Source: a virus
Direction: 5' to 3' (one strand)
DNA: 25,702 nucleotides
Virus record (IMG/VR): IMGVR_UViG_3300048586_000134
Span: 1-25,702 of that record
The notes beneath the pieces were generated by a model. The model made no database searches, was not told the DNA's origin, and worked only from the letters and a program-made list of their open reading frames with translations. The position numbers were made by a program, and so were the translations under genes. Shown here in pieces: positions 9,875 to 25,702 of the stretch. The first letter of the stretch is position 1. Each line of letters starts with the position of its first letter.

Positions 9875-12800
9875 ATGGCAAGAACAATCAATATCGATAT
9901 TAATACAACAGCCGATCTTGCAGCGCTGACAAGTCTCCTTCGTGGAATCAACACTGTCAAGCGCTCCCTGACAGGCTTCGCGAATTCCAAGACAGGAAAC
10001 TACTTCAAGGATATCGCGGATAGCGCCAACAATCTTGCAAAGGCGATGGATCGTCTGGCGGCTGCACAAGAGAAGCAACAAGCCTCTGCCAAGAAAAGCG
10101 CGACCAGCGCAAGCAAACAGGGCAAGGAAATCAACGAAACCGCGCAAAACTATCGGGAGCTATCAAGAAGTCTCGGTAACCTGAACGGTTTCTTGCGACA
10201 GTCACAGAATATGATGGTTGCACAAGGGCAGCAAGTACGCAAGGTTGACCAGCAATTCGACGCACTTGAGCGCTCTATCCGAGAACTCGGAGAGGCGGAA
10301 GCGGAACTCAACCGTCTCCGCCGAACTGGACGTGCGACAGATGATCAGCGAACGCTCGCAATGACTCGCTTCTCTGAGGCAGCAGCACGAGCGAGAGCGG
10401 CCCTGACAAACCTGAACCAGTCACAGCGGTCGATCATTAACTTCGATGATAATATGTCTCGACAGTTGACGGATTTCATGACGAAGATTCGTCAGATGCA
10501 GGACATGAAAGACCTCGATTTGATTCCAGAGGGGCAAGCAGCCCGATTCGAGTCAGAACTTCGTCAGATGCAATTCGCCGCTCGCGAACTTCAACAGAAG
10601 GCGCGTGATGCTGGCACGACACTACAGCAACTCGACTCAGCTATTGGCATGTCGAATGATGTGGTTCGTCGCGCCACGGCTGGCAAGCAGGAATACACAA
10701 ATCAAATCAGACAGAACACAGAAGCAGCCAGAGCGTCAACGGCTGCATGGCGCACCTTTGGTCAGAGTATCACAAGCGTTCTCGCCCCAATCAAAAACTT
10801 TGTCAATGCTCTTCGTCAGATTGCTTCGAATCTTACCCAAGGCGTAAGGAATGCACTGAATTCGATCACACGTTCTATCAGCACCTTTGGTAGCACGGCG
10901 GGATCAGCCTTTGCAAAACTGCGATCTACAATGAGCATGGCTGGGGGTTGGTTTAGCACCTTCGCGCAACGTGTCCAGCAGAGCATGAATGCTTCTCGTC
11001 AAGCGGTTACAACCTTCTATAATGCGGGTTGGTCGCTCCTGACGAGTGGTTATATGGCGCAGTCGTTCGGTACGGGTATTTTCCGTGGCTTGAGCGATAA
11101 TCTCAATCAATATATGGATTACGAACGTCAGCTTATGAAGGCAACGATTGCGGCTGGTAGCTTCGAAGGAACAGGCGAGCAGGGAACACTCACCATTGAT
11201 CCGAAGATCGTTCAAGAGATGATCTTTGGTATGCAGCGTGGTACGCTTGGTGCCGCTCCGCTCCGTTCGTTTGATGCCGCGCAACTTGCAGAAGGTCTCT
11301 ACTACTACGCATCCGCAATCGGTCAGCCGATTACGGAACAGAACATGGGGCAACTGGCACCGATCATCGGTAATATTATGTCACTGTCGCAGGTTTCTGG
11401 TGCAGGACTGGAAACAACCGTCAAGGCTGTTCTCAACACGGCTCTTGAGTTTGGCTTCGATCCTCGTGCAACGGGCGATGCTGAGCAAATGGGCGCTCTT
11501 GGAAACATCGCGGCTCAGATTGGTTGGCTCTCTAACATTTCCACGATGGAAGTTCCAGACATTGCTGAAATGTTCAAGCAAGTCGGTCCTATGGCAAACC
11601 TCCTCGTTGGTGGTCAGGGTGGCGGCTTGAATGATACCATGCTCCTCGCCTTCCTCGCATCTGAAATGGGTCTGCGTGGTAGCCGCGTGGGTACTGGTCT
11701 CAACCAAGCCTTCATGACGCTTCTCGATCCAACAGACAAGAACCTTGAAACCGCTTCTCGCTTCTTTGGCATCGAAGCCTCTCAGGAGGCATGGGACGCA
11801 TTCTTCAAAGACTCGGAGGGACGACTCGAAGGGGGAATCCCTGGACTGTTTGAGAAAATTGGACAGATTCCGAAAGAACAGCAAGCACAATTCCTTGCAG
11901 AACTCTTCACAACCAACGCAACCCGTAACGTGCTTGCTATGCAGGCTGCACTAGAAAAGAACGGCGGTTGGGATGCGATCATGGAAGAGACGAGACTGGC
12001 AACGGGTGATCCGCAGCGTTGGCTCTCTCAGGCTATGGCAGCGACCAACGATACGGTCTTCGCAAGCATGCAGAACATGAAGAATGCATGGTTTGCGATC
12101 CAGACTGAAATCATCGACGGTATCAGTGGTCCCTTCAAAGGTGCTTTGAATGGAATTGCAGAAATCTTTTGGGAGATTGCTGACGTTGTTCGCGCAAATC
12201 CTTGGATCGCTGAACTTGTTGCTTCGATTACGACGGCAATTGCAGCGGTCTCCTCGTTCATTGGCGTTCTCTTTGTCATGAGTGGTTCGGTTCTTCTCGT
12301 TCTGAAGGCATTCCAGATGCTCGGAGGATCACTTGGTCCTGCGGTCTTCTTCCTGCTTTCGGCGGTGAAGGCGGCTGTCTTGCTCGTACCGCTTCTGGCG
12401 GCTCTGGCGGCAGTCGGAACCATGCTTTACATTGCATGGCAAAACAACTTCTTGGGTATTCGCGATTTCGTTGATGGTATGCGACAAACCCTTGATGTTG
12501 GAGAACTAATGCAGTCCATGATGGACCGTATCTATGAAGGCGCACAACTTCTTGGTACGGCGTGGATGCAGTTTGTTTCTGTCTTCCTCCTCGGTATCGA
12601 TGGTCCGATCAACGCTCTTGGTTCACTGCTGACGACATTGTTTGGTCCGCAACTGGCGAACTATTTCCTCTCGACGCTCACGAATTGGAGCAACGGTCTT
12701 AACAACTTCCGCGAAAACTTTGTGGATTTTGTAACCGATCTGCGTAATGGCGCGGGTGCGCTGACAGGTATCGCGGATACCATTCAGGGCTTCCTTGAAG

Positions 12801-15800
12801 TCTTGTTCCTTGGCGGAATCAGTCAAGAAAATCTTGGAGGAATGCGTAATCTAGGAGCATTGCTCGGTATCGAGAACTTTCCGCTTCAGATTCACCGTGC
12901 GGCGACAGCGCTCAACGGTTTCCTCGACTCCGCCGCTGGCTACTTTGTCGGCTTCCGCGACATCATCGCTGGCATCTTCAATCAGATTGGGAATAACCTT
13001 ACGCGCATCTTCCGTGGTTTGACCTCTAGCGTCGGTCTCGGCGCGATTCGTGACGCACTCACAGGGTTCGCGATGGGCTTTGGCTCTGCGATCCTCACTG
13101 CTGTAAGAGCAGTTGAACTCCTGACGCGTGCGCTGGCAAACCTTGGACGTGCTGGGAGATGGATGTCTGATCTGCTTGAGCGGGTAACAGGCATCAGCGT
13201 CGGCGTTGGTACGCTGGCGACAGCCGTTGGCGTTCTTCTCGGCGCATTCGCGGGTGGACGACTCCTGGCTGCGATTCTCCCGTTTGAGACATTGCTTGGC
13301 GTACTCATGAGAATTGGTCCGATTATCTCCATCGTCGTCAGTGTCGTTGGTACGCTCCTCACCTCGGTTGGTCTGCTTGCAGCACCGATTCTGGCGGTTG
13401 CAGCAGCGCTCCTGATTTGGGAGAATCGGGCAAACGGCATCGAAGGTGTCATGGCAGGATTGCAAGGTATTCTCGACGGTTTTATCGTTGGTCTCTTTGC
13501 AATCGGGCAGGCTGTTTACTCCGCAGTTGAACCTCTCGTACAGTGGGTAGCGGGACTGCTTCAGAGCCTTGACAGCATGACCGCATTCAATGCAGTTGGC
13601 TTTGCGCTGGCAGCAGTGTTTGCAATGCTGGCGGGTGGCGCAATCCTTGGCGTGGTTGCTTCTCTTGCGCAATTCACGGTGGGCCTGATCACGGCGGCGG
13701 CAACGATTACAGGTGCCGTTCTTGGAGCTATTGCTTCGCTTACTGCGTCGTTTATCAAACTCTCCTTTAGTCTTACCAAAGATGTTCTCACTGCCATTGG
13801 CGCATTCGGTTCTGCTATGGCAACAACAACAGCGGGTGTCGCGGCAAATGGCGCGGTCATGTCAACTGGTCTCATGGCAATCTTCACAAACCCGATTGCG
13901 GCAATTGCAGCCCTTATCGCGGCCCTCTTTACCCTCGTTACAGCGGTAAGCCTCGTAGCGTTTACCATGACAGGAGGCTGGGGAGCCGTTCTTCAGACGA
14001 TGGGCGAATTCATGGATATGGCTGCACCGATCATGATGAACATCATGGAAATCTGGCAGCATGACGCATCGACTGGTATGGCAATGCTCGGAGCAACGCT
14101 GGCAGTCGGTCTTGCAGGCGCAATTGCAACTATGATTGCTCAGGGACCAAAGATGCTCGGTTGGCTCGGTGGTGGCGCTCTCGATCTTCTCGGGGGTCTT
14201 CTACCTGAAGACAGTGCTCTCGGCTTGTTGCTCGGAAAGGGTGCGGACGCAACGCGCTTCCTCGGTAACATGTCCACAATGGGCTTCCAAGCGGAAGTCC
14301 GCGACATTCAGGCAGGCTTCCTCGGCAAGATTTATACCAGCACGCAAGGCATGGTAGACTCCTATGGTGAAATGGATACGGAAGGCGGTATCGGTGGATG
14401 GGCTGATCGGCTCGTCGCAGGATTCACAGACCGTATCTCAAATACTCGATTCGGAAATCTCTGGAATCAGGTACTTGAAGCAATGGGTATGGACCCGAAC
14501 AATCCGAAATTCGGAGACGTTGACTGGAAGAACCTTCTTGGTTTCGCCCAGCTTGACGATTTGATGAATAGCGAAGCGTTCCAGTACATGCCGAAAGAGC
14601 TTCAGGGCTGGATGGAGATTGTTGACGACTGGCAGCAATGGCAGGAAACGGTTGCGCGATTCGGTGGTAACGTCAACATGGCTCGTGGATTCTACGAAGC
14701 CAACAACATGACTGTTCCGAAGCCACCGAACTATGAAGAGTATTGGGCATCTATCTCAGAGCAAATGGATGAAGGTGCGGCGGAAGCAGAGGCAGCGGCA
14801 CAACGAGCAGCAGAAGTTCTACAGCAAATGAATGAAGCGCTAATGGGTGCAGACCTTGGAACCTTCTTGCAGACTTCCTTCATGCCAGAAGGCGGCGGAA
14901 AGTCCGCGATGTCGTTCATCTACGAAAATGCTGAAGCAATTATCAGTAACATTGGTGATGCTGGACCGTGGCTCAATCCTGTCGAACTCCTCGCTGACGT
15001 AGCGGGAGCGGGTGGTGGCAACGTCAATGTGCTCGGCAAGAACGTCCATGAGGCGTTACGACCAGCACTTGAAATCGTCGCACAGCAGACAGGCGTCTCG
15101 ATTGACGAAATGCTGAAGGATATTCCGAAGTTTTACGCACCAGAAGAATTCGTCAATGTGGCGACAGATGACCTCCTCGAAGGTATTGCTACACTGCCGA
15201 AGGAACTCTACCAGAAAGTAGACACGCTCGGGGCGGGCGACTGGACTGAATTCGGTCTTGACTGGCAAGAGCTTACGGATTATGCTATCGGACAGGCAAT
15301 CACAGGAACCGAATGGAACCTTGCTGATTATGTCATGGAAGCATTTGGTGTCTCGGAAGATGAGGCAATCCGCCGACTCAAGGCGGCTGGTCTTTCTGAC
15401 GCGGATATCGATGCTATCGGTAGTAGCTGGTTCGGTGACACAACTTTGTGGGCGCAATCGCTCCAAGGACAGGTCAATGTTATCAATGAAACATGGTGGC
15501 CGATTGTTCAAGGTATGACCGACGACATGAAGGATACAACCATCGAAATCTCGGAAGGTGCGTTCGCGGCTCTCCCTGACTCGGTGAAGACCTCCCTCTC
15601 GGCGCTTGGTTACACCTTTGTTATCGGTGGACAGCAGACGGCAAATCAGGTTGCCGCTGGTCTCGGTGCAATCCAGACAGCGATTCTTGCGAATCACCCT
15701 GAGATTCCACCTGACATTATGTCTGGCATCATGACATCATTGATGAGCGGTGAAGTAGACTTCAGAACGTGGACAGACGAAGCTGGTACTAGCTGGACAA

Positions 15801-17602
15801 CCTTTGTGGACAACATTAACGGTACGGAGATTACGATCCCGACCGCTGATGCACAACCACTCATCTCGGCGGTTAACGAGTCGAAGACCGCTGTCGATGG
15901 GCTTGTCGGTTCGTTGAATACGCTCAAGAACTGGAAGTACGATCCTGGCCTCTTTGGTGGTCAGTACGCTCCATCGCAACAGGAAATGGCAACCACGCCT
16001 GATCCTGGCGGAACGGGTGGTCCTGCTGTTGGTGCGGAGTATGTTGGCGCAACACCAGAAATGGTACGCCAATTCCTCGCAAGCCTCGGTATCCCGACTC
16101 CTGAAGAAATCGATACAGCCGTTGCTGAAGTTTCGACAGCAATCGAAACCTCGGTTACGGAAATTAATCTTGACTCGATTGAACTGTCTGGTTTCGAAGA
16201 TTTTGGTAAGTCTGTTGCTGAAGCAATCGGTAAGGGACTTTCCGACAATCTCGGAACGGCAATCAGTGCAGCGCTGTCAGGACAAACCACAGGCGACGGA
16301 ACTGGCGGTCCTGAGACGGACACTGGATTATTCTCGAATTATGGTAAGCAGTCGGCAGAGCAATTCCGCATTGCATTCACTGAAAATATTAACGGTGAGA
16401 CAAGCCTCTTCAATCCATTCGGAGAGGGCGCGGCAGTCGGTAATCCGTGGGAAACCTTTGGTAACTACGGTACAGACGCAGCAGAAGCATTCCGCACCGC
16501 TTTCCAGACAGGTCTTGAGGGACTGGCTTCTGGACTCGGCTTGCTTGACTTCGCATCGCAAGGCACCACATGGGGCATTGCAGCGGGTAATGCGTTTGCG
16601 GCGGCTTTCCGCTCTTCAATGTCAATTGGAGCAGGCGGGGGAGCACCTATCGGCGCGGATGGAAATCCTGCACCGTACGCTCCTGGCGGCGGTATGGGCT
16701 TTACTGATGGTAGCATGGGCGGAGGAGGCATGGCACCACAGACCATCACTGTCGCGGTCAAGATGGACTTTACCGACTATGACGCTGGGTTGGCAAGCCT
16801 GAACCAAAACCTGATTGACAATGCGGACGCAAATCTGACTGTTGACGCCAAGATGGATGACACAGAATTTATTCGTGTCTTCAACGCTGTCAATGGTTAT
16901 ATTACTACGCTAGGTAACCGAAAAGCCGTTCCTGCGGTCTTGCTTCAAGCGTACGCCTTTGACATGACCTACAATGCAGTGAATGGTAAGCTCGACACTT
17001 TGACACAGAGGATCGCCACACCAACGGTCAACCTGAACGATAATGCTTCAGGACCGCTTGGAACGATCATCGACAGACTGAACAGCATCGATGGACGTGT
17101 GGTGACATCTACCGCAAACGTCAATACGAACAATACCACAACGAACACAGTTCGTACAGTAACGGAGGGTATTGGTCCAACGCAACAACTGGCAACTGGT
17201 GGTTACGTCAACTCGGCCATTCAGCTTGTCGGTGAGCAGGGACCAGAACTTGTGGCATTGCCGCAGGGATCGTATGTGTACAATGCGACGGCAACGGCGA
17301 ATATGATGGACTCACTCGCTTCTCCTGTTGGAGTTGCGATGGACGCAGGCTTCTCGGCTAATGCTCCTCGTTCGTTTAGTAACGGCATTTCGAACATCGA
17401 TGCTGCGGAAATGAAGAGATGGTTGATCGATGCCGCACAAGGTAAGCAAGAAATCCACTACAACATTAATGTTGACGCAATCAACATTTCTAAGGAAGTG
17501 GATATCGACCGTGCACTTGAGCGATTCGACCGACTGACAGGTAACCGAACGGAACTTCTCCGACGCGGTATGGGGACATTCGAGGAACATCGAACAATGT
17601 AG
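9875..17602 (+). CDS. Tail tape measure protein (2575 residues)
   Basis: Sets tail length and is ejected ahead of the DNA. The start ATG follows AGGGG with 6 nt spacing. The N-terminal ~390 residues are helical or coiled coil and Gln/Ala-rich (MDRLAAAQEKQQASAKK). Residues about 390-740 resemble the conserved tape-measure core of the TP901-type minor tail family (QLAEGLYYYASAIGQP, IGWLSNISTMEVPDIAEMF, LRGSRVGTGLNQAFMTLLDP). Several very hydrophobic stretches follow at about 782-853, 1111-1182, 1236-1293, 1333-1365 and 1402-1422, probable membrane-inserting segments. The C-terminal part is Gly/Thr-rich and ends with the common tape-measure phrase GGYVNSAIQLVGEQGPELVAL (about 2442). No lysozyme or peptidase motif was recognised. 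At ~0.15 nm per residue the tail would be about 385 nm, unusually long. Confidence 0.95.
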   Translation: MARTINIDINTTADLAALTSLLRGINTVKRSLTGFANSKTGNYFKDIADSANNLAKAMDRLAAAQEKQQASAKKSATSASKQGKEINETAQNYRELSRSLGNLNGFLRQSQNMMVAQGQQVRKVDQQFDALERSIRELGEAEAELNRLRRTGRATDDQRTLAMTRFSEAAARARAALTNLNQSQRSIINFDDNMSRQLTDFMTKIRQMQDMKDLDLIPEGQAARFESELRQMQFAARELQQKARDAGTTLQQLDSAIGMSNDVVRRATAGKQEYTNQIRQNTEAARASTAAWRTFGQSITSVLAPIKNFVNALRQIASNLTQGVRNALNSITRSISTFGSTAGSAFAKLRSTMSMAGGWFSTFAQRVQQSMNASRQAVTTFYNAGWSLLTSGYMAQSFGTGIFRGLSDNLNQYMDYERQLMKATIAAGSFEGTGEQGTLTIDPKIVQEMIFGMQRGTLGAAPLRSFDAAQLAEGLYYYASAIGQPITEQNMGQLAPIIGNIMSLSQVSGAGLETTVKAVLNTALEFGFDPRATGDAEQMGALGNIAAQIGWLSNISTMEVPDIAEMFKQVGPMANLLVGGQGGGLNDTMLLAFLASEMGLRGSRVGTGLNQAFMTLLDPTDKNLETASRFFGIEASQEAWDAFFKDSEGRLEGGIPGLFEKIGQIPKEQQAQFLAELFTTNATRNVLAMQAALEKNGGWDAIMEETRLATGDPQRWLSQAMAATNDTVFASMQNMKNAWFAIQTEIIDGISGPFKGALNGIAEIFWEIADVVRANPWIAELVASITTAIAAVSSFIGVLFVMSGSVLLVLKAFQMLGGSLGPAVFFLLSAVKAAVLLVPLLAALAAVGTMLYIAWQNNFLGIRDFVDGMRQTLDVGELMQSMMDRIYEGAQLLGTAWMQFVSVFLLGIDGPINALGSLLTTLFGPQLANYFLSTLTNWSNGLNNFRENFVDFVTDLRNGAGALTGIADTIQGFLEVLFLGGISQENLGGMRNLGALLGIENFPLQIHRAATALNGFLDSAAGYFVGFRDIIAGIFNQIGNNLTRIFRGLTSSVGLGAIRDALTGFAMGFGSAILTAVRAVELLTRALANLGRAGRWMSDLLERVTGISVGVGTLATAVGVLLGAFAGGRLLAAILPFETLLGVLMRIGPIISIVVSVVGTLLTSVGLLAAPILAVAAALLIWENRANGIEGVMAGLQGILDGFIVGLFAIGQAVYSAVEPLVQWVAGLLQSLDSMTAFNAVGFALAAVFAMLAGGAILGVVASLAQFTVGLITAAATITGAVLGAIASLTASFIKLSFSLTKDVLTAIGAFGSAMATTTAGVAANGAVMSTGLMAIFTNPIAAIAALIAALFTLVTAVSLVAFTMTGGWGAVLQTMGEFMDMAAPIMMNIMEIWQHDASTGMAMLGATLAVGLAGAIATMIAQGPKMLGWLGGGALDLLGGLLPEDSALGLLLGKGADATRFLGNMSTMGFQAEVRDIQAGFLGKIYTSTQGMVDSYGEMDTEGGIGGWADRLVAGFTDRISNTRFGNLWNQVLEAMGMDPNNPKFGDVDWKNLLGFAQLDDLMNSEAFQYMPKELQGWMEIVDDWQQWQETVARFGGNVNMARGFYEANNMTVPKPPNYEEYWASISEQMDEGAAEAEAAAQRAAEVLQQMNEALMGADLGTFLQTSFMPEGGGKSAMSFIYENAEAIISNIGDAGPWLNPVELLADVAGAGGGNVNVLGKNVHEALRPALEIVAQQTGVSIDEMLKDIPKFYAPEEFVNVATDDLLEGIATLPKELYQKVDTLGAGDWTEFGLDWQELTDYAIGQAITGTEWNLADYVMEAFGVSEDEAIRRLKAAGLSDADIDAIGSSWFGDTTLWAQSLQGQVNVINETWWPIVQGMTDDMKDTTIEISEGAFAALPDSVKTSLSALGYTFVIGGQQTANQVAAGLGAIQTAILANHPEIPPDIMSGIMTSLMSGEVDFRTWTDEAGTSWTTFVDNINGTEITIPTADAQPLISAVNESKTAVDGLVGSLNTLKNWKYDPGLFGGQYAPSQQEMATTPDPGGTGGPAVGAEYVGATPEMVRQFLASLGIPTPEEIDTAVAEVSTAIETSVTEINLDSIELSGFEDFGKSVAEAIGKGLSDNLGTAISAALSGQTTGDGTGGPETDTGLFSNYGKQSAEQFRIAFTENINGETSLFNPFGEGAAVGNPWETFGNYGTDAAEAFRTAFQTGLEGLASGLGLLDFASQGTTWGIAAGNAFAAAFRSSMSIGAGGGAPIGADGNPAPYAPGGGMGFTDGSMGGGGMAPQTITVAVKMDFTDYDAGLASLNQNLIDNADANLTVDAKMDDTEFIRVFNAVNGYITTLGNRKAVPAVLLQAYAFDMTYNAVNGKLDTLTQRIATPTVNLNDNASGPLGTIIDRLNSIDGRVVTSTANVNTNNTTTNTVRTVTEGIGPTQQLATGGYVNSAIQLVGEQGPELVALPQGSYVYNATATANMMDSLASPVGVAMDAGFSANAPRSFSNGISNIDAAEMKRWLIDAAQGKQEIHYNINVDAINISKEVDIDRALERFDRLTGNRTELLRRGMGTFEEHRTM

Positions 17603-17640: not shown

Positions 17641-17659
17641 CTGGACAAGGAGCGTGGCT

Positions 17660-20600
17660 ATGGCGCTGAACCCTTCAGCAATTTCATTTAACGGTACATC
17701 ACAACACGCTAAGCTCTCGGCAAATGCTTCTATCAAGAACATGACAGCCTTCACATGGATGGCTTGGGTTAAAGTAGGAGCAAACGCAAATTCGCCGTAT
17801 AAAAAGCTATATGTGGAGCGACAGGGAACTGGTTCTGGAATCAGATTTGCTGTTAACGCTTATCATAGTAGGCTTCGATTCGAGCTAGCGGTTCAAGATG
17901 GACAAACCGACACAAATTATGACTACCGAACAACATGGGATGACTACTGGCACCACATCGCATTTGTGGCGCGTATCAGCGGCGAGAATCCAACCTACCA
18001 AATGTTCAAGGACGGCTCGCTTGTAGCAGAGGGAACACTTGTCAAGCCTGCTGGTGTCGATAATATCTCGAATACTGCCCCACTTGGAAGTACGATCTAT
18101 GTTGGTAACCATTCTCTGCACACGAGCGGAGGAGAGAGTTTTCTCGCAGATCGTTACTGGCATGGCAAGATCGATGATGTCCTGATCTTTGACGAAGCGA
18201 AGTCAGCAGGAGACATTACCAGCTACTTCTCAAGCAATGATACATGGGATATGGGCGATACAGCAATGTTCTCTTATTGGCGCTTTGACGAAAATACAGG
18301 CTCTTCCACAGTCGATGCTGATAATGGCGGATGGACAGGAACACTCCTGAACAATAACGTTGCAAGTTCAGGGCTTTGGACCATTGATCGTGCATTCCTT
18401 GGCAACGGTACGGTGGACACAACGGCTCCAACCACACCGACACTGCCTGGAACGCCGACGACATCGATCACGGCAGACGGCTTTCGGGCAACATGGATAA
18501 CAACAACGGATAACGTCTACGTGCAGGGATACGAACTTCAAGTATCCACAGTCTCGAACTTTGCCAGCTACACAACATACCACACCCCCAACGGGCAAGT
18601 GACTGAACTGATTACGGGATTACTTCCTAATACGAATTACTATTGGAGAGTGCGTGCATACGATGCTGAACTCAATATGAGTGGTTATACAGCAACACAA
18701 TCACTGACAACATCGAATGTTGCTGATCTGACTCCGCCGAACCAGCCAACGAATGTTACCTCGTCCTCGGTTACGCACTCATCGTTTGCGGTAAGCTGGA
18801 CAGGCAGCACTTCTCCTGATGTGACTGGATACAAGATTGACGTTGGACTTGATCCGAACTTCAATAACTACCTCTCAGGATATCGTAACCGTGACATCGG
18901 CGCAGTCCTGACAACGACCGTTAGCGGCACGTTACCGCTCACCAGTTACTATGTGCGCCTGCGTGCTTATGATAATGACCGTAATGAAAGTCTGGAAACG
19001 GACTACATCCTCGTCCAGACGCCTTCGATTCCTGACCTCATTGCACCGAATGTTGTTGATCCCCTTCCTGCGACGAGCATTACCTCGCGAGCATTTACGG
19101 CAAGCTGGGAAGAGGGTGAAGATAACGTAGGTGTCACAGGGTACTATCTCGATGTCTCAACGGCATCGGACTTCTCCTCATTTGTGACAGGATACCAGAA
19201 TCTCTTTGTTGGAAACGTCACTGAGTATCGTGTAACAGGGCTTGTTCCTGAGACGACCTACTACTACCGAACACGCGCAACAGACGCAGCGGGAAACATT
19301 AGCGGCAACTCGGTTGTCGAAATGGATGTTACAACGCTCATCACTTCGGTTGAAGATGGTGGTATCACGACTGTTCTCATTGAACCAACGGCGGATGCGG
19401 AAGTGCGGAGTGCCAGCGCTTCGACAAACTACGGTTCTGCGACCTCGATTACGGTTGTCGGTAACGGTAGTGCGGCGACACAGGCGGCACACCTTCTCTT
19501 CCCGCTTGACTTTGTGACAGGCAACCTGACCTCAGCAGTTCTGAACATTTATGTCACGGAAGCCTCATCTGTTGCGGCGGCGGCGAAGGCCGACAATGTA
19601 ACCTTTACCGAGTCAACCCTAACATGGACGAATCAGCCTGCGGTTGCGGGTAGCTCGGTTGCCTTTACACCGCTCGCAACGGGCTGGGTAGCGATTCCGA
19701 TTACCTCTCTCCTCCTCGACGGTAAGACAACCTATGATGTTTACCTTTCAACGACAAGTGCGGACGGCTTCACCTTTGACTCGAAGGAAGGTACGAACAA
19801 ACCATATCTCGAAGTTGAATACGACCAGAGTACAGCGACCAAGCTGGATGCGATCAGTGTAGAGGCGGGTTCAAGTGGACGCGTGAACATGAACCGCAAT
19901 CCGAACTTTGAAGGAAATGCCACAACAGGTTATGCTATTTCAGCAGCGGGTGTCACATTGTCTGTTCATGCAACAGAGGGTGTTGAAGGTTCGAAGGCGC
20001 TGTCAGTGGTATCGACTGGCTCAGCGGCAAACCTTGGATTCATTCATGGTGATTCTATCTGGACTCCTGCTTCCTTCGGAGAAACGCTTACCGTTTCGTT
20101 TGCGGCTCGTGCAACGGCAACGGAATCGTTAGTTATCTCGGTGCAACAACGTAATTCAGCAGGATCGCTTCTCTCCTCAACGCTTAAAACAATCTCAGTA
20201 GGGACAACACGTCAACGTTATGTCCACACGGTCGAGATGAATCAAGCAACTGTCGCGTATTTTGTGGTTTACGTGTACAAAGTTGCGGCTGCGGCATTTA
20301 CCGCGTACTTTGACGAATTCCTTTTCGAGAAAGCGTCCTCGTACCTCGGATACTTTGACGGTAACACTCCTGGCGCATACTGGCAAGGTACGGCCAATGC
20401 GAGTTTCTCGGTTATGCCTGTCTCCAAAATCGAAACGTCAACAACGTACCTTGGAGACAGCGACACCGATAACAGTGTTAGCCTCTACTTCAAGCCTTCT
20501 GAAGAAAGTGAGTGGATGACGCATCCTGCTCTCGTTCCTGTCGTCAACCGAACGACGAAGCGATGGGAGTATACGCTTGAGGGTGGTCTTGGTGAGTATA

Positions 20601-22357
20601 ATCTCGTACCGAACCCTGGCTTTGAACTCGATACGGCCAACTGGACTGTTATCAATGGTGCAACTGGCTTTGCTCGACAAGACACTGAGGTATATGAAGG
20701 CAGCTACGCAGCAGTCTTTACTTCTGCTGGTAGCACCTCGGGTATCTGGACAGGTCATATTCCTGTAACGGCAGGCACCGTTCTTCATTGCCGCAATCGT
20801 GTCAAAGGTCCGATTGGGAATGACTTTAAGTTGGTGCTTCGCTTCTATGATGCCGCAGGGACAACACTTCTCGGCACGTCTAACGATGTTATGGGCCAGA
20901 GTCGCTACAGCGCTCTTGACGGAACATGGCAGGAAGCATGGGTTGTTGCGACGGCTCCTGCATCCACGGCATCTGTTCGCGTTGCGCTCACAGCGGTAGG
21001 TATGGCGGGTGGTCCGTACTACATCGACAACGTTCTTCTTGGCTTTGGTGCAAATCTGAATCCATACCGAGACGGCTCCTACCCTGACGCATTCTGGAAC
21101 GACACCGAACACAACTCGGTGACGCACCTGATGATTATGCCAGAGCGCAGCTACGACATTCGTTATGTCTACAGTGATCCTGACGGCTTGATCGACGCCC
21201 CTGGCTCGACAACCGCAGAGATGGTCACAACCTACATAACGACAGCAATGCCTGACAACACGACGACGATTGGAACGATCACAACTGAATCAGATGTTGA
21301 GTCGATCACCGTTCGTGGTGTCTATGTCGGTGACGATAACGAAAACATGACGATGCGGGTTGAGTGGAAGCGTACCGACCTCACCAACTGGAATACGGTG
21401 ACACACGCAGTCAGCCGTGACACCAAGAGCTTTGCGGCGACAATTCCGTATCTGCGTGCAGGAACGTCCTACACCATTCGATTCACCTTCACCGATCCCG
21501 ATGGTGTGTACAACACGACAAATGGTGTTGTGGAGGTGCTGGCGACAACCATGCTCTCCCATACGACTCCTGATGTCATTTCGCGCATCCGCTTCGGTGG
21601 TTTCGTCCTCATGGACAGCGCCGACTACACATCAAAGGTAGGTGTGACTGAACATAATGCCTTTGGATTCCCTGAGCGTCGTCTACAGATCGAAGACCTT
21701 CCTCGTGAGGACGGAGCGATTGAACTTCAGAACCTTTGGGGACGACGTTCGATTTCGATGCAGGGCTTCATTGAAGGAGCAACGAGAGTCGAGCTTGAAC
21801 AGAATCTTCAAGCACTCAAGAGAGCGCTCGCACCACGATTGCAGCGCCTTCAGATCGATACGTTGAACGACACTGGTCGCTACTACACGGCAACCTGTGA
21901 GAGTTTGGCGATTGTGGAGAGTCCAGAGAACATTCGTCACCTGACATGGGATGCTGACTTTGTGTGCGCTGATCCGTTCGCGTACGATACGACCGTCAGC
22001 ACGCTCCCTGAGTTTACGGCGGCACATAATAGTACCGTCACGATCAACAATGTTGGAGATACGCGTGTTCCGCTGCGAATGAATGTGCGCACGACACACA
22101 CCTTCCCTGTCACGTTGTCGATTATTAACTCTACAAGTGGAGAACGAATCAGTCCATCCAAAACGCTGATCAGCGGTGATCGTCTGGTTATCGACAGCAC
22201 GCGCAAGTCAATTACCAAGAATGGTATCGAACTCGATTACCAAGGAGCCTTCCCGCACTTGCTGATGGGAGGCAACACCTTCACGTTCGTCCTCAGCACG
22301 ACGAGCGGAACCCCAACGATTCTTGTCGAGATGGTCTGGCAAAGCCAGTATCTCTAA
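17660..22357 (+). CDS. Distal tail protein with giant N-terminal adhesin region
   Basis: A 1565-residue tail-tip protein starting at ATG 17660, 7 nt after AAGGAG; a GTG at 17654 is too close to that site. Approximate modules: LamG/concanavalin-like lectin (1-245); three FN3 domains (252-350, 354-455, 457-562); a DNRLRE-like beta domain (570-722) with DAEVRSASASTNYGSATSI; and an NPxFE carbohydrate-binding-like module (739-919). Then comes an FN3 domain split by a second NPxFE module (920-1195, insert ~977-1158), and another FN3 (1198-1300). The last ~260 residues (1308-1565) look like a siphophage Dit ring protein: EDGAIELQNLWGRRSISMQG, LEQNLQALKRALAP, RYYTATCESL and DFVCADPFAYD. Dit forms the hub joining tube to tip. 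Here its N-terminal region probably displays sugar-binding modules for host attachment. The domain calls are by eye, and the Dit assignment is the firmest. Confidence 0.87.
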   Translation: MALNPSAISFNGTSQHAKLSANASIKNMTAFTWMAWVKVGANANSPYKKLYVERQGTGSGIRFAVNAYHSRLRFELAVQDGQTDTNYDYRTTWDDYWHHIAFVARISGENPTYQMFKDGSLVAEGTLVKPAGVDNISNTAPLGSTIYVGNHSLHTSGGESFLADRYWHGKIDDVLIFDEAKSAGDITSYFSSNDTWDMGDTAMFSYWRFDENTGSSTVDADNGGWTGTLLNNNVASSGLWTIDRAFLGNGTVDTTAPTTPTLPGTPTTSITADGFRATWITTTDNVYVQGYELQVSTVSNFASYTTYHTPNGQVTELITGLLPNTNYYWRVRAYDAELNMSGYTATQSLTTSNVADLTPPNQPTNVTSSSVTHSSFAVSWTGSTSPDVTGYKIDVGLDPNFNNYLSGYRNRDIGAVLTTTVSGTLPLTSYYVRLRAYDNDRNESLETDYILVQTPSIPDLIAPNVVDPLPATSITSRAFTASWEEGEDNVGVTGYYLDVSTASDFSSFVTGYQNLFVGNVTEYRVTGLVPETTYYYRTRATDAAGNISGNSVVEMDVTTLITSVEDGGITTVLIEPTADAEVRSASASTNYGSATSITVVGNGSAATQAAHLLFPLDFVTGNLTSAVLNIYVTEASSVAAAAKADNVTFTESTLTWTNQPAVAGSSVAFTPLATGWVAIPITSLLLDGKTTYDVYLSTTSADGFTFDSKEGTNKPYLEVEYDQSTATKLDAISVEAGSSGRVNMNRNPNFEGNATTGYAISAAGVTLSVHATEGVEGSKALSVVSTGSAANLGFIHGDSIWTPASFGETLTVSFAARATATESLVISVQQRNSAGSLLSSTLKTISVGTTRQRYVHTVEMNQATVAYFVVYVYKVAAAAFTAYFDEFLFEKASSYLGYFDGNTPGAYWQGTANASFSVMPVSKIETSTTYLGDSDTDNSVSLYFKPSEESEWMTHPALVPVVNRTTKRWEYTLEGGLGEYNLVPNPGFELDTANWTVINGATGFARQDTEVYEGSYAAVFTSAGSTSGIWTGHIPVTAGTVLHCRNRVKGPIGNDFKLVLRFYDAAGTTLLGTSNDVMGQSRYSALDGTWQEAWVVATAPASTASVRVALTAVGMAGGPYYIDNVLLGFGANLNPYRDGSYPDAFWNDTEHNSVTHLMIMPERSYDIRYVYSDPDGLIDAPGSTTAEMVTTYITTAMPDNTTTIGTITTESDVESITVRGVYVGDDNENMTMRVEWKRTDLTNWNTVTHAVSRDTKSFAATIPYLRAGTSYTIRFTFTDPDGVYNTTNGVVEVLATTMLSHTTPDVISRIRFGGFVLMDSADYTSKVGVTEHNAFGFPERRLQIEDLPREDGAIELQNLWGRRSISMQGFIEGATRVELEQNLQALKRALAPRLQRLQIDTLNDTGRYYTATCESLAIVESPENIRHLTWDADFVCADPFAYDTTVSTLPEFTAAHNSTVTINNVGDTRVPLRMNVRTTHTFPVTLSIINSTSGERISPSKTLISGDRLVIDSTRKSITKNGIELDYQGAFPHLLMGGNTFTFVLSTTSGTPTILVEMVWQSQYL

Positions 22358-22376: not shown

Positions 22377-22913
22377 ATGGCGATTACGGACAAAAGACGG
22401 TATGAAAAGCGGAAGAGTGAGGGGCGCTGCGTGGCGTGCGGCAAACCGCGCTCTATCCACGAGACGACAATCAAGTGTTCGGACTGCCGTCGCAGGCATA
22501 AGGAAGCGAGCCTTAAGTATATTTATCGGCACAAAGGGAAAGACTGCTGCCAGAGATGCGGTTCAGCACACCTTATCACACAGCCAGAAGGTGCGAAGTG
22601 GCGCTTTTGTGAAGAATGCTTTCTAAAGAAGTTGTCACGAACGCATCTTGGGACAGAGAAGGAATGGAAATTCTTGAAGGAGTTGTTCGAAAGTCAAAAC
22701 GGTTGTTGCTATTATACGGGCGAACGGCTGACTCTCGGCATCAACGCCTCGATTGACCACAAGCTGCCACAGAAACGATTCCCTGCGGTGAAGCACAGTC
22801 CTGACAATGTTTGCTGGTCTACGTTGGAGGTAAATCTTATGAAGAGGGATTTGACGGACACAGAATTTATTAATCTTTGTGCTCAAGTCACGAGGGTAAC
22901 ACAATGCCGATAA
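22377..22913 (+). CDS. Free-standing HNH endonuclease with two Cys-pair fingers
   Basis: A 178-residue putative homing endonuclease. Four CxxC pairs suggest two zinc-binding knuckles: C18/C21 with C34/C37, and C58/C61 with C78/C81. The HNH nuclease lies at about 109-165, with CCYYTGERLTLG, the catalytic-type DH at 127-128 in ASIDHKLP, and N144 and N153 in DNVCWSTLEVNLMKRDLT. AGGAG (22363-22367) precedes the ATG. The gene sits between two tail-tip genes, overlaps the start of the next by 10 nt, and uses more CGG, GGG and GAG codons than its neighbours by eye, which may indicate later arrival. Neither neighbour looks interrupted, so it is free-standing rather than intron-borne. A packaging-associated HNH role is less likely this far from the terminase gene. 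Confidence 0.87.
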   Translation: MAITDKRRYEKRKSEGRCVACGKPRSIHETTIKCSDCRRRHKEASLKYIYRHKGKDCCQRCGSAHLITQPEGAKWRFCEECFLKKLSRTHLGTEKEWKFLKELFESQNGCCYYTGERLTLGINASIDHKLPQKRFPAVKHSPDNVCWSTLEVNLMKRDLTDTEFINLCAQVTRVTQCR

Positions 22914-25702
22914 AACCCGTTACCGTATTCGACACATTTTCGCGCACACGCACGGATTTGTGGGGTACTGGCGACAGTGGACACACATGGTCGAACACAA
23001 ACAACTCTCGCTTCGATGTGAACGGTTCGGTAGGCACCATCTCGGTGCCTGCCAACCAATCGGCACACATTGCGTACCACAACGGCGAATCCGACACAAC
23101 CTGTCAAGTCTTGACACTCATGCGTTGGACGAGTAGCGCGGCCTCGCCGCTGACTGACGTTGGCCCTGCTTTGAGCCGCATCGATAACTCGACATACTAT
23201 ACGGTGGCGATTCAAGACCTTTACGACGAAGTTGCAATCGTTTTCTACCAGAATGGTACAAGATGGGAACTCAACCGTGCGGCAAAGACCGTTTCGAAGA
23301 ATACGTGGTATTGGGTACGTTTTGAGCGTACTTCGACGGCATTGCGTGCAAAGGTTTGGGCGCAAGGTACTACCGAACCATCTTCGTGGACCGTTACAAG
23401 CGGTCTCTGGTCTGGCTCAAACCCCCCTGCCTCGGGAAATCCTGGCTTCTACGCAAAAGGTAACGCGGATGCGTATAATGTAGAACTCGCAGCCTACTAC
23501 TTCTACAGCGGTGAGGACGACGAACCTGGCGTTCCTGTCAATGATACATTCGAGAGAGGTGTCACAACAGGTTGGGGTATGTCGGATAGTGGTCACGTAT
23601 GGGAAGGAAACTTCTCTCTTGATCCCGCGATCCGAACGAGAGCCGCTGAGGGCTTTGTCAACGATCCTGGCGACGGCTATGCTCAATACTCTATCGATAA
23701 CACCGACGAACACTATGGTTTCATTGGACCAAACCGCAGCACAAACATGGAGATTTACACTGAATTCTCCATCAACTCCGCTGCTGGTAGCACGATTCTG
23801 TATATCGGCCAACGTGGTACAATGGAAGTCGCGAGCGGTGCGGTCTCTGGTTACGGCTATGCGGTGAAGGTTACTTCTGGCGCTACGACCATTCCGATCA
23901 TGAAGAAAACATCGTCGGGTGGTTCGTGGACGCAGGTTGGTACAGCAAGCACGGTAACCGCACTCGTGGCAAATACCATTTATTCGGTGCGTTTTCAGCT
24001 TGTTGGTACAACACTTCAGGCGAGAATTTGGGTAGCAGGAACCGCAGAACCCGCGACTTGGCATTCGACAGGCACCGACTCCTCCATTACTGTTGGCCGT
24101 GCCTTTACAATGATCACACAGACGGTCACAACGACACGTCAGGTACGTTTCTACCGCTTCGATCATACGACTCCGACGCCACAGGCAACAACGACACACA
24201 CCACGACTGGTGCCATTACAACCGCACAACTGAACGACATTTCTGCTACACTGCGAGCAGCGTTCACGAACGACTCTAACTCGAATAACTCAGTAGTTGT
24301 GAGCTATCGTGTAGCGGGTACTCAAACATGGACCACGTTCGGCGGCACAGTTACTAGAACCGCCACGTATCACCAGTTTCAACTGACTGGACTGACTCCG
24401 AACACGAGTTATAACGTTCGCGTAGAATTCTCGGATGCTGACACAGTTGTTGGTACAAACCCTGTTCTCGCAACGATCACGACGACGAATCAAGGCGTTG
24501 TTACGGGAAATGTCACGATCACGGCGGTTGGTCCGTCTACGATAGACGTGGAAGCAACCTACACTGAAGACACGGACAACAACTCGACAGCGACTTTGGA
24601 CTATCGCGTAACATCTCAAACAACCACACTCGGCTCAGACAGCTTCAACGGCTTGACAGGAACCGAACTCTCAACTCATGTTGCTGATCTTGGTCCTGCG
24701 TGGGTCAAGCATCCAACAAGTGCGTCCAATACGTCACTTGCTCTCGTGAACAACCGCGTGCGGATGGTTTCTGATGCCACGAACAAGACGGTACGATACT
24801 ACCAAGACTTCAGTTCGATTGACAATCAGTACACTGTTTCAGCGCACTTTGTCTATCTTGGAGCAATGTCAAATACTGCACTCATTGGTCGCGCAAGTAA
24901 GACGTTGCTCACATACTATGGACTTTCTTACTCTGCCTCAGCAGGGAGATGGGAACTCTATAAGCAGGTTAGCGGCGTGTACACGCTTCTCGGTAGTTTT
25001 GCTGCCGTTGTCAACATCGATGACATTCACGTTGTTGAACTTGTCTTGCGTGATGATTACAAAGCTGCTATCATTGATGGTGTTGAACGCATTCGTTCGA
25101 CGGATAACACCATCGCCTCTGGTGTCCCAGGTTTAGCGCTCAGTTCTATCGTGGGTGCCGCAGAGCTACCCACGGAAACAAATCACGTGCTGGTTGACAA
25201 TTATACAGTGACGACACGTTCTATGGGCGGCTCGTGGACTTCGGCTGGTGCCATGACTGCTGATCGTGTCAACAAGAAATTCACCAAGCAATTGACTGGT
25301 CTCACGGCTGACACGGTGTACGAAGTTCGTGTTACCTACGCAGACACGTTCGGTGTTCGTGGTTTTAACCCGATCAGCGCGACGGCGATGACGACAGGAG
25401 CCGCTTCAGGACTCTTTGCGATTACGTCAACCGTGCAACCAACCTCTGTTGTTCTGGATGTTTTCTATTACTTTGACTCGAACGCAAACTCGTCATTAGC
25501 GATTGAGTATCGTTCAGTCATGGATTTCCTCTGGACAACTGTTCCATCAGGAAATATTCAGGTTGATCGTGGAGCCAAGAAATTCACGACGATCCTTTCC
25601 AGCCTCTCTCCTAACACAACCTATCAGGTTCGGGCAACGATTACCGATCCTGACGGCTTTATTCAAGGACTGCCGTCGCAACTCACTGGTCTGATTACGA
25701 CG
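22904..25702 (+). CDS. Tail-tip adhesin with jelly-roll and FN3 modules (3' end outside window)
   Basis: The frame is open from ATG 22904 to the window end with no stop (933 codons). The ribosome binding site is GAGGG at 22893-22897 inside the HNH gene, whose stop overlaps this start by 10 nt. Two related jelly-roll (LamG-like) modules come first, at about 7-205 and 212-426. Each begins D-x-F-x-R and carries a WG...DSGHxW motif, and late in each is (V)R-F-(E/Q)L-type strand sequence. FN3 a follows (427-530), then FN3 b, which is split by a third jelly-roll module (insert about 576-773), and FN3 c (834 onward). FN3 ends show the repeated pattern LTGLTPNTSYNVRV. It is likely a host-binding or hub-associated minor tail protein. 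Siphophage order after Dit would predict a Tal-like hub domain, possibly at its unseen C-terminus. Confidence 0.85.
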   Translation, partial: MPIKPVTVFDTFSRTRTDLWGTGDSGHTWSNTNNSRFDVNGSVGTISVPANQSAHIAYHNGESDTTCQVLTLMRWTSSAASPLTDVGPALSRIDNSTYYTVAIQDLYDEVAIVFYQNGTRWELNRAAKTVSKNTWYWVRFERTSTALRAKVWAQGTTEPSSWTVTSGLWSGSNPPASGNPGFYAKGNADAYNVELAAYYFYSGEDDEPGVPVNDTFERGVTTGWGMSDSGHVWEGNFSLDPAIRTRAAEGFVNDPGDGYAQYSIDNTDEHYGFIGPNRSTNMEIYTEFSINSAAGSTILYIGQRGTMEVASGAVSGYGYAVKVTSGATTIPIMKKTSSGGSWTQVGTASTVTALVANTIYSVRFQLVGTTLQARIWVAGTAEPATWHSTGTDSSITVGRAFTMITQTVTTTRQVRFYRFDHTTPTPQATTTHTTTGAITTAQLNDISATLRAAFTNDSNSNNSVVVSYRVAGTQTWTTFGGTVTRTATYHQFQLTGLTPNTSYNVRVEFSDADTVVGTNPVLATITTTNQGVVTGNVTITAVGPSTIDVEATYTEDTDNNSTATLDYRVTSQTTTLGSDSFNGLTGTELSTHVADLGPAWVKHPTSASNTSLALVNNRVRMVSDATNKTVRYYQDFSSIDNQYTVSAHFVYLGAMSNTALIGRASKTLLTYYGLSYSASAGRWELYKQVSGVYTLLGSFAAVVNIDDIHVVELVLRDDYKAAIIDGVERIRSTDNTIASGVPGLALSSIVGAAELPTETNHVLVDNYTVTTRSMGGSWTSAGAMTADRVNKKFTKQLTGLTADTVYEVRVTYADTFGVRGFNPISATAMTTGAASGLFAITSTVQPTSVVLDVFYYFDSNANSSLAIEYRSVMDFLWTTVPSGNIQVDRGAKKFTTILSSLSPNTTYQVRATITDPDGFIQGLPSQLTGLITT

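Follow-up and report, generated by a model that had tools for sequence, protein, structure and literature searches.

A Dit protein with its core at the C-terminus behind adhesion-type modules in an uncultured, putatively siphoviral phage

In the usual view, the core of the Dit protein of a phage tail is fixed, and insertions are accommodated within its galectin-like domain or behind it. Evolved Dits carry carbohydrate-binding modules (CBMs) inserted within the core, and both of their ends align to a classical Dit (PMC10688798, PMC7291167). In lactococcal phages, such Dit-borne CBMs promote adsorption to exopolysaccharide-bearing hosts (PMC10688798). The extra domain of Corndog gp58 is also internal, lying between domains I and III (PMC13252515). 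Among hub proteins, lambda gpJ and T5 pb3 are N-terminally extended, with the core away from the N-terminus (PMC7291167). In the open-licence literature, we found no report of carbohydrate-binding arms at the N-terminus of a Dit.

Here, we analyzed a 25,702-nt stretch (hereafter the window) of the virus record IMGVR_UViG_3300048586_000134, which is 127,895 bp in total and possibly incomplete. It contains a long Dit gene whose product differs from these Dits in the position of its modules. Window features given below lie on the + strand.

Gene neighbourhood of the long Dit

Terminase, portal, capsid and tail-tube genes were all identified in the window by Pfam and PHROG searches. No tail sheath was found among the window proteins searched, which suggests that the phage is a siphovirus. 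A gene for a 2575-aa product (9875..17602), which by its length, position and sequence would be the tape-measure protein, lies immediately 5' of the long Dit gene. The latter (17660..22357; 1565 aa) is a genuine open reading frame with both Pfam and PHROG matches. Its ATG at 17660 is 57 bp 3' of the tape-measure gene and is preceded by the Shine-Dalgarno sequence AAGGAG (17647..17652), whose duplex energy of -8.1 is comparable to those of other genes in the window. The gene thus stands after the tape measure and before the hub (Tal) gene, and a small HNH/endonuclease VII-like gene (22377..22913; phrog_1035, 1.8e-13) occupies the interval between Dit and hub. This small gene overlaps the start of the Tal gene by 10 bp.

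The initial annotation would have been undermined by a separate Dit gene elsewhere; we found no second Dit in the 127,895-bp, possibly incomplete record. Relatives of the phage were sought in several ways. A tblastn search with the whole 1565-aa protein against phages and plasmids gave no match, and no related phage came to light when viral contigs were scanned for its Dit core, portal, tape measure and capsid, with one distant portal as the sole match. A scan of genome contigs did not find a relative either. Streptomyces phage Riptide, Brevibacillus phage Emery and Thermus phage MN1 are distant portal or terminase relatives, and were rejected as guides to this tail since they have different tail modules; Emery and MN1 carry baseplate or sheath genes.

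Elsewhere in the record, positions 114661-124485 encode a 3274-aa protein that resembles a tail fibre and contains both phage tail repeats and YadA-head repeats; we regard it as a candidate for the main receptor-binding protein. In addition, ten tRNA genes lie within 20 kb (record 108000-127895), four of which are for serine.

A complete Dit core at the C-terminus

Several lines of evidence placed a Dit core at residues 1307-1565 (21578..22354), without interruption. First, Pfam SPP1_Dit matched residues 1467-1560 (1.3e-7; 32.2 bits, above the curated cut-off of 25), which identifies the C-terminal galectin-like domain (22058..22339). The belt (RIFT-related) domain, whose matched part spans 21686..21910, was recognized by Sipho_tail at residues 1343-1417 with 0.0076, below the cut-off (16.9 bits vs 24.2; 21.6 bits genome-wide) and also by hhalign; Sipho_tail models the belt domain, and a match to it supports but does not define a Dit. 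Second, two PHROG families matched residues 1310-1557, one of minor tail proteins (phrog_5577, 7e-13) and one of Dits (phrog_202, 2e-9). Third, a profile of nine other Dits, from which the window sequence was left out, aligned by hhalign to residues 1297-1565 over 233 columns (99.3%, E 1e-20), with no large insertion. The same profile recovered the SPP1 Dit (2x8k) at 5.8e-25 and had no match in residues 1-1296. The belt and the C-terminal galectin-like domain are therefore found in one chain, belt first. Finally, the core shared 25% identity over 85% with the Dit of Geobacillus phage GBSV1 (E 6e-4).

An AlphaFold2 model of the core, built from 26 aligned Dits, had a mean pLDDT of 74; the C-terminal domain reached about 90, and the first ~65 residues scored low. 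The belt half, which is weak in Pfam, was modelled with low-to-moderate confidence near its start. In a Foldseek search of the PDB, all of the best 14 matches were Dits or Dit-equivalents, including monocin FtbK and the proteins of SPP1, NF5, Douge, TP901-1, 80alpha, p2 and Bxb1. The TM-scores of these PDB Dits were only ~0.4, since it is uncertain how the two core domains are placed relative to each other, and this aspect of the predicted model should not be trusted. The best viral fold match was an annotated distal tail protein with a TM-score of 0.61. A 734-aa minor tail protein of an Arthrobacter phage also matched the model by fold, and more N-extended Dits may exist among proteins of this kind.

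The suggestion that a Dit sits at the C-terminus of this protein was thus well supported by the SPP1_Dit match above cut-off, the nine-Dit profile at 1e-20 and the fold matches, and the combined profile and fold search, which might have come back empty, found the Dit fold at residues ~1307-1565. By every defining feature that could be tested, the protein belongs to the Dit family.

Modules ahead of the core and in the neighbouring hub

Residues 1-1296, in front of the core, consist of adhesion-type modules. The chain begins with a LamG/ConA-like lectin module at residues 11-186 (17690..18217; Laminin_G_3, 1.3e-15, 58.3 bits vs a cut-off of 27.6; PDB 4qvs, 8e-4), whose Laminin_G_3 match was seen only when this piece was searched alone. 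It is followed by three FN3-type modules at residues ~260-559 (18437..19336; three Pfam fn3 stretches and PDB FN3 matches) and a CBM96/DNRLRE module at residues 572-720 (19373..19819), which matched PF24517 (2.2e-22; 80.1 bits vs 26) and NCBIfam NF033679 (1.6e-15; 57.5 vs 34). Next comes the first of two NPxFE (CBM_4_9-like) modules, at residues ~740-922 (19877..20425), with a PF02018 match of 2e-4 that is below cut-off (22.2 bits vs 25.9). The second NPxFE module, at residues ~979-1159 (20594..21136), had no match to the CBM_4_9 model and was delimited by alignment z scores; the two are homologous to each other (z 11.8). This second copy is nested in an FN3-like module, the two halves of which occupy residues ~925-978 and ~1160-1196 (20432..21247 for the whole). 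When joined, the halves aligned to the following FN3-like module with z 11.2, as compared with z 4.8 and 8.0 for each half singly. That last FN3-like module (residues ~1197-1299; 21248..21556) has a weak fn3 match and adjoins the core. The module order first proposed (lectin, three FN3, DNRLRE-like, two NPxFE, FN3 and the Dit last) therefore holds with refinements, including one that had been missed, namely the CBM-like module nested inside an FN3 module.

A similar layout, also overlooked before, was found in the next-but-one gene. The putative Tal/hub gene begins at 22904, so that only its start (22904..25702) is in the window, and extends to 27475 of the record. It has N-terminal modules first and the hub core last, behind roughly a thousand residues. 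It opens with a tandem pair of related modules (z 19.5), and its FN3 modules are related to those of the long Dit (z 12.3 with the last FN3-like module). An FN3 module of the Tal/hub protein is likewise interrupted by an insert. We are less certain of the hub assignment than of the Dit: Prophage_tail matched residues 1323-1459, in the frame counted from an upstream TTG, with 27.1 bits vs a cut-off of 31.3, and the genome-wide match, with neighbours in frame, reached 31.8 bits, just over that cut-off. A small three-hub profile did not find the hub core in this protein, and a larger set of hubs gave a weak match confined to the end of the core.

These observations bear on whether a tail-fibre gene was joined to a Dit gene during metagenome assembly. 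The sequence does come from a single uncultured record for which close relatives were not found. However, the frame runs unbroken from arm into core, and the arm modules ahead of the join have relatives in the neighbouring hub, whose gene is laid out alike. The long Dit gene also has a canonical start directly 3' of the tape-measure gene. We consider an assembly artefact highly improbable.

Our preferred explanation, which we hold to be probably correct, is that this gene is the only Dit of the phage, that its core builds the ring and that its N-terminal modules are glycan-binding arms on the ring subunits. The C-terminal ~260 residues would fold as a two-domain Dit core and form a ring between the tail tube and the hub. 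Since the modules are on the N-terminus of the core and not inserted into it, each ring subunit would bear a long arm, up to six per virion, made of about eight lectin-, CBM- and FN3-type modules (~1,300 residues). The hub could add similar N-terminal modules in up to three copies, such that six and three arms would surround the tip. Polysaccharides or other glycans on the surface of the host are the most likely ligands of the arms, which would draw the tail tip to the cell. The main receptor-binding step might reside in a different protein, for instance the 3274-aa fibre. We infer ring formation, the number of arms, glycan binding and the role in adsorption from the assignments above; in particular, both a hexameric ring with six arms and the binding of sugars by these arms are predicted from homology, the latter from the families of the modules.

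It is also conceivable that the arm modules are spacers or a tail decoration that binds no ligand. FN3 modules are frequent inert spacers in tail proteins, and for the CBM96/DNRLRE and NPxFE modules a function is assigned here by homology only. Yet the LamG, CBM96 and CBM_4_9-like modules are either members of carbohydrate-binding families or similar to them, and CBMs in the Dits of other phages do bind hosts (PMC10688798, PMC7291167), which makes a purely structural role unlikely.

The boundary between arm and core offers another possibility. The strongest in-frame Shine-Dalgarno sequence of the long Dit gene, GGAGGT with a duplex energy of -10.6, is separated by a 13-nt spacer from the ATG at 21551 (M1298; whole site 21532..21553), and this codon sits right at the junction of the last FN3-like module with the core. 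An energy of -10.6 was reached by 3% of synonymous shuffles, a post hoc test devised once the site had been seen. Initiation at this putative internal start would yield a 268-aa Dit, of about the classical size (240-265 aa in the Dits compared), beside the full-length armed protein, and a mixed hexamer with fewer than six arms could result. If so, translation would set the number of arms on the tail-tip ring. Besides the post hoc nature of the test, the spacer is long, that of the portal gene being about 5 nt, and no such boundary site was present in the hub gene or in the N-extended prophage Dit described below. We regard two products from this gene as rather doubtful.

Comparison with known Dits and hubs

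To assess how unusual this layout is, we surveyed two samples of ~400 genomes each, drawn from the phylum and the class of Anoxybacillus (~800 Bacillota genomes). Dit frames longer than 600 aa numbered 14. Eleven of them were enlarged by sequence inserted between the core domains, two were fusions of a tape measure and a Dit, and a single one had an N-terminal extension (~415 aa). None of 80 viral Dits of one group had an extension. The two fusions, 1824 and 2045 aa long and ending in a Dit, had been considered as further N-armed cases. In both, the tape measure is joined in frame to a Dit with an internal insertion, and both occurred in a single Bacilli genome (L090:1933-8070 and L091:8052-13526 (-)).

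According to these two fusions, the N-terminus of a Dit in the ring may lie near the end of the tape measure or the lumen. They also have a bearing on a possible processing step in which assembly removes the N-terminal modules and the virion retains a Dit of classical form, as fusions of this type would presumably need some such step for stoichiometry. AlphaFold2 had very low confidence in the ~20 residues preceding the core of the long Dit, which would fit a flexible linker. Against cleavage, neither a protease nor a cleavage site was identified, and both proteins would need cutting since the hub has the same kind of N-terminal modules. We consider such processing very unlikely. The long Dit makes it a directly testable question whether the N-terminus of a Dit can point outward from the ring.

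The N-extended case from the survey was a 650-aa Bacillota prophage Dit with its core at residues 417-650 (L052:10389-12341), and an identical copy was present in an IMG/VR contig (L097). Like the long Dit, it has a C-terminal core behind a large N-terminal domain, whereas its extension is a single ~415-aa region without a Pfam match rather than a chain of lectin, CBM and FN3 modules. A 666-aa protein without a Pfam match is encoded 5' of it (L052:8387-10387); by eye, this protein and the N-extended Dit have the look of alpha/alpha toroid enzymes.

Classical Dits such as SPP1 gp19.1 and that of GBSV1 share with the long Dit the full-length two-domain core, the fold and the position after the tape measure. 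This position was also found for the Dits of BSTP12, TMW 1.1393 P1 and GBSV1, the last lying between the tape measure and a tail protein. However, classical Dits are 240-270 aa long, whereas here 1,300 residues stand ahead of the core. The evolved Dits of lactococcal 936/Skunavirus, streptococcal and lactobacilli phages resemble the long Dit in that they bear carbohydrate-binding modules, but these are inside the core; in the long Dit the core is whole and all modules are N-terminal. The profile alignment shows no internal CBMs, the defining feature of evolved Dits, and on this basis the long Dit is not a classical 'evolved Dit'. The initial annotation had described evolved Dits as carrying modules within or after the core. 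The first part agreed with the literature, which describes insertion inside the core (PMC10688798, PMC7291167), and thus the N-terminal placement observed here departs more sharply from known cases than had been stated. Bxb1 gp23 and Corndog gp58 are likewise enlarged by extra domains, and Bxb1 is also a fold match, but their extra domains are internal (for Bxb1 gp23, by its record note) and not N-terminal.

Some hubs offer a parallel in layout. In Bacillus phage BSTP12 gp66 (L007:4663-8025), ~655 residues with a galactose-binding-type module precede the hub core. However, gp66, gpJ and pb3 are extended hubs, not Dits, and the Dit of BSTP12 is classical. An N-armed Dit beside an N-armed hub suggests that the N-termini of both cores can bear large adhesion chains, which widens the range of ways to hang host-binding modules on a tail tip. 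It is also a warning for annotation, in that an apparent tail-fibre protein may have a Dit core at its far C-terminal end. On our best reading, N-extended hubs and internally inserted evolved Dits were already known, and a Dit with N-terminal adhesion arms is what this phage adds to them.
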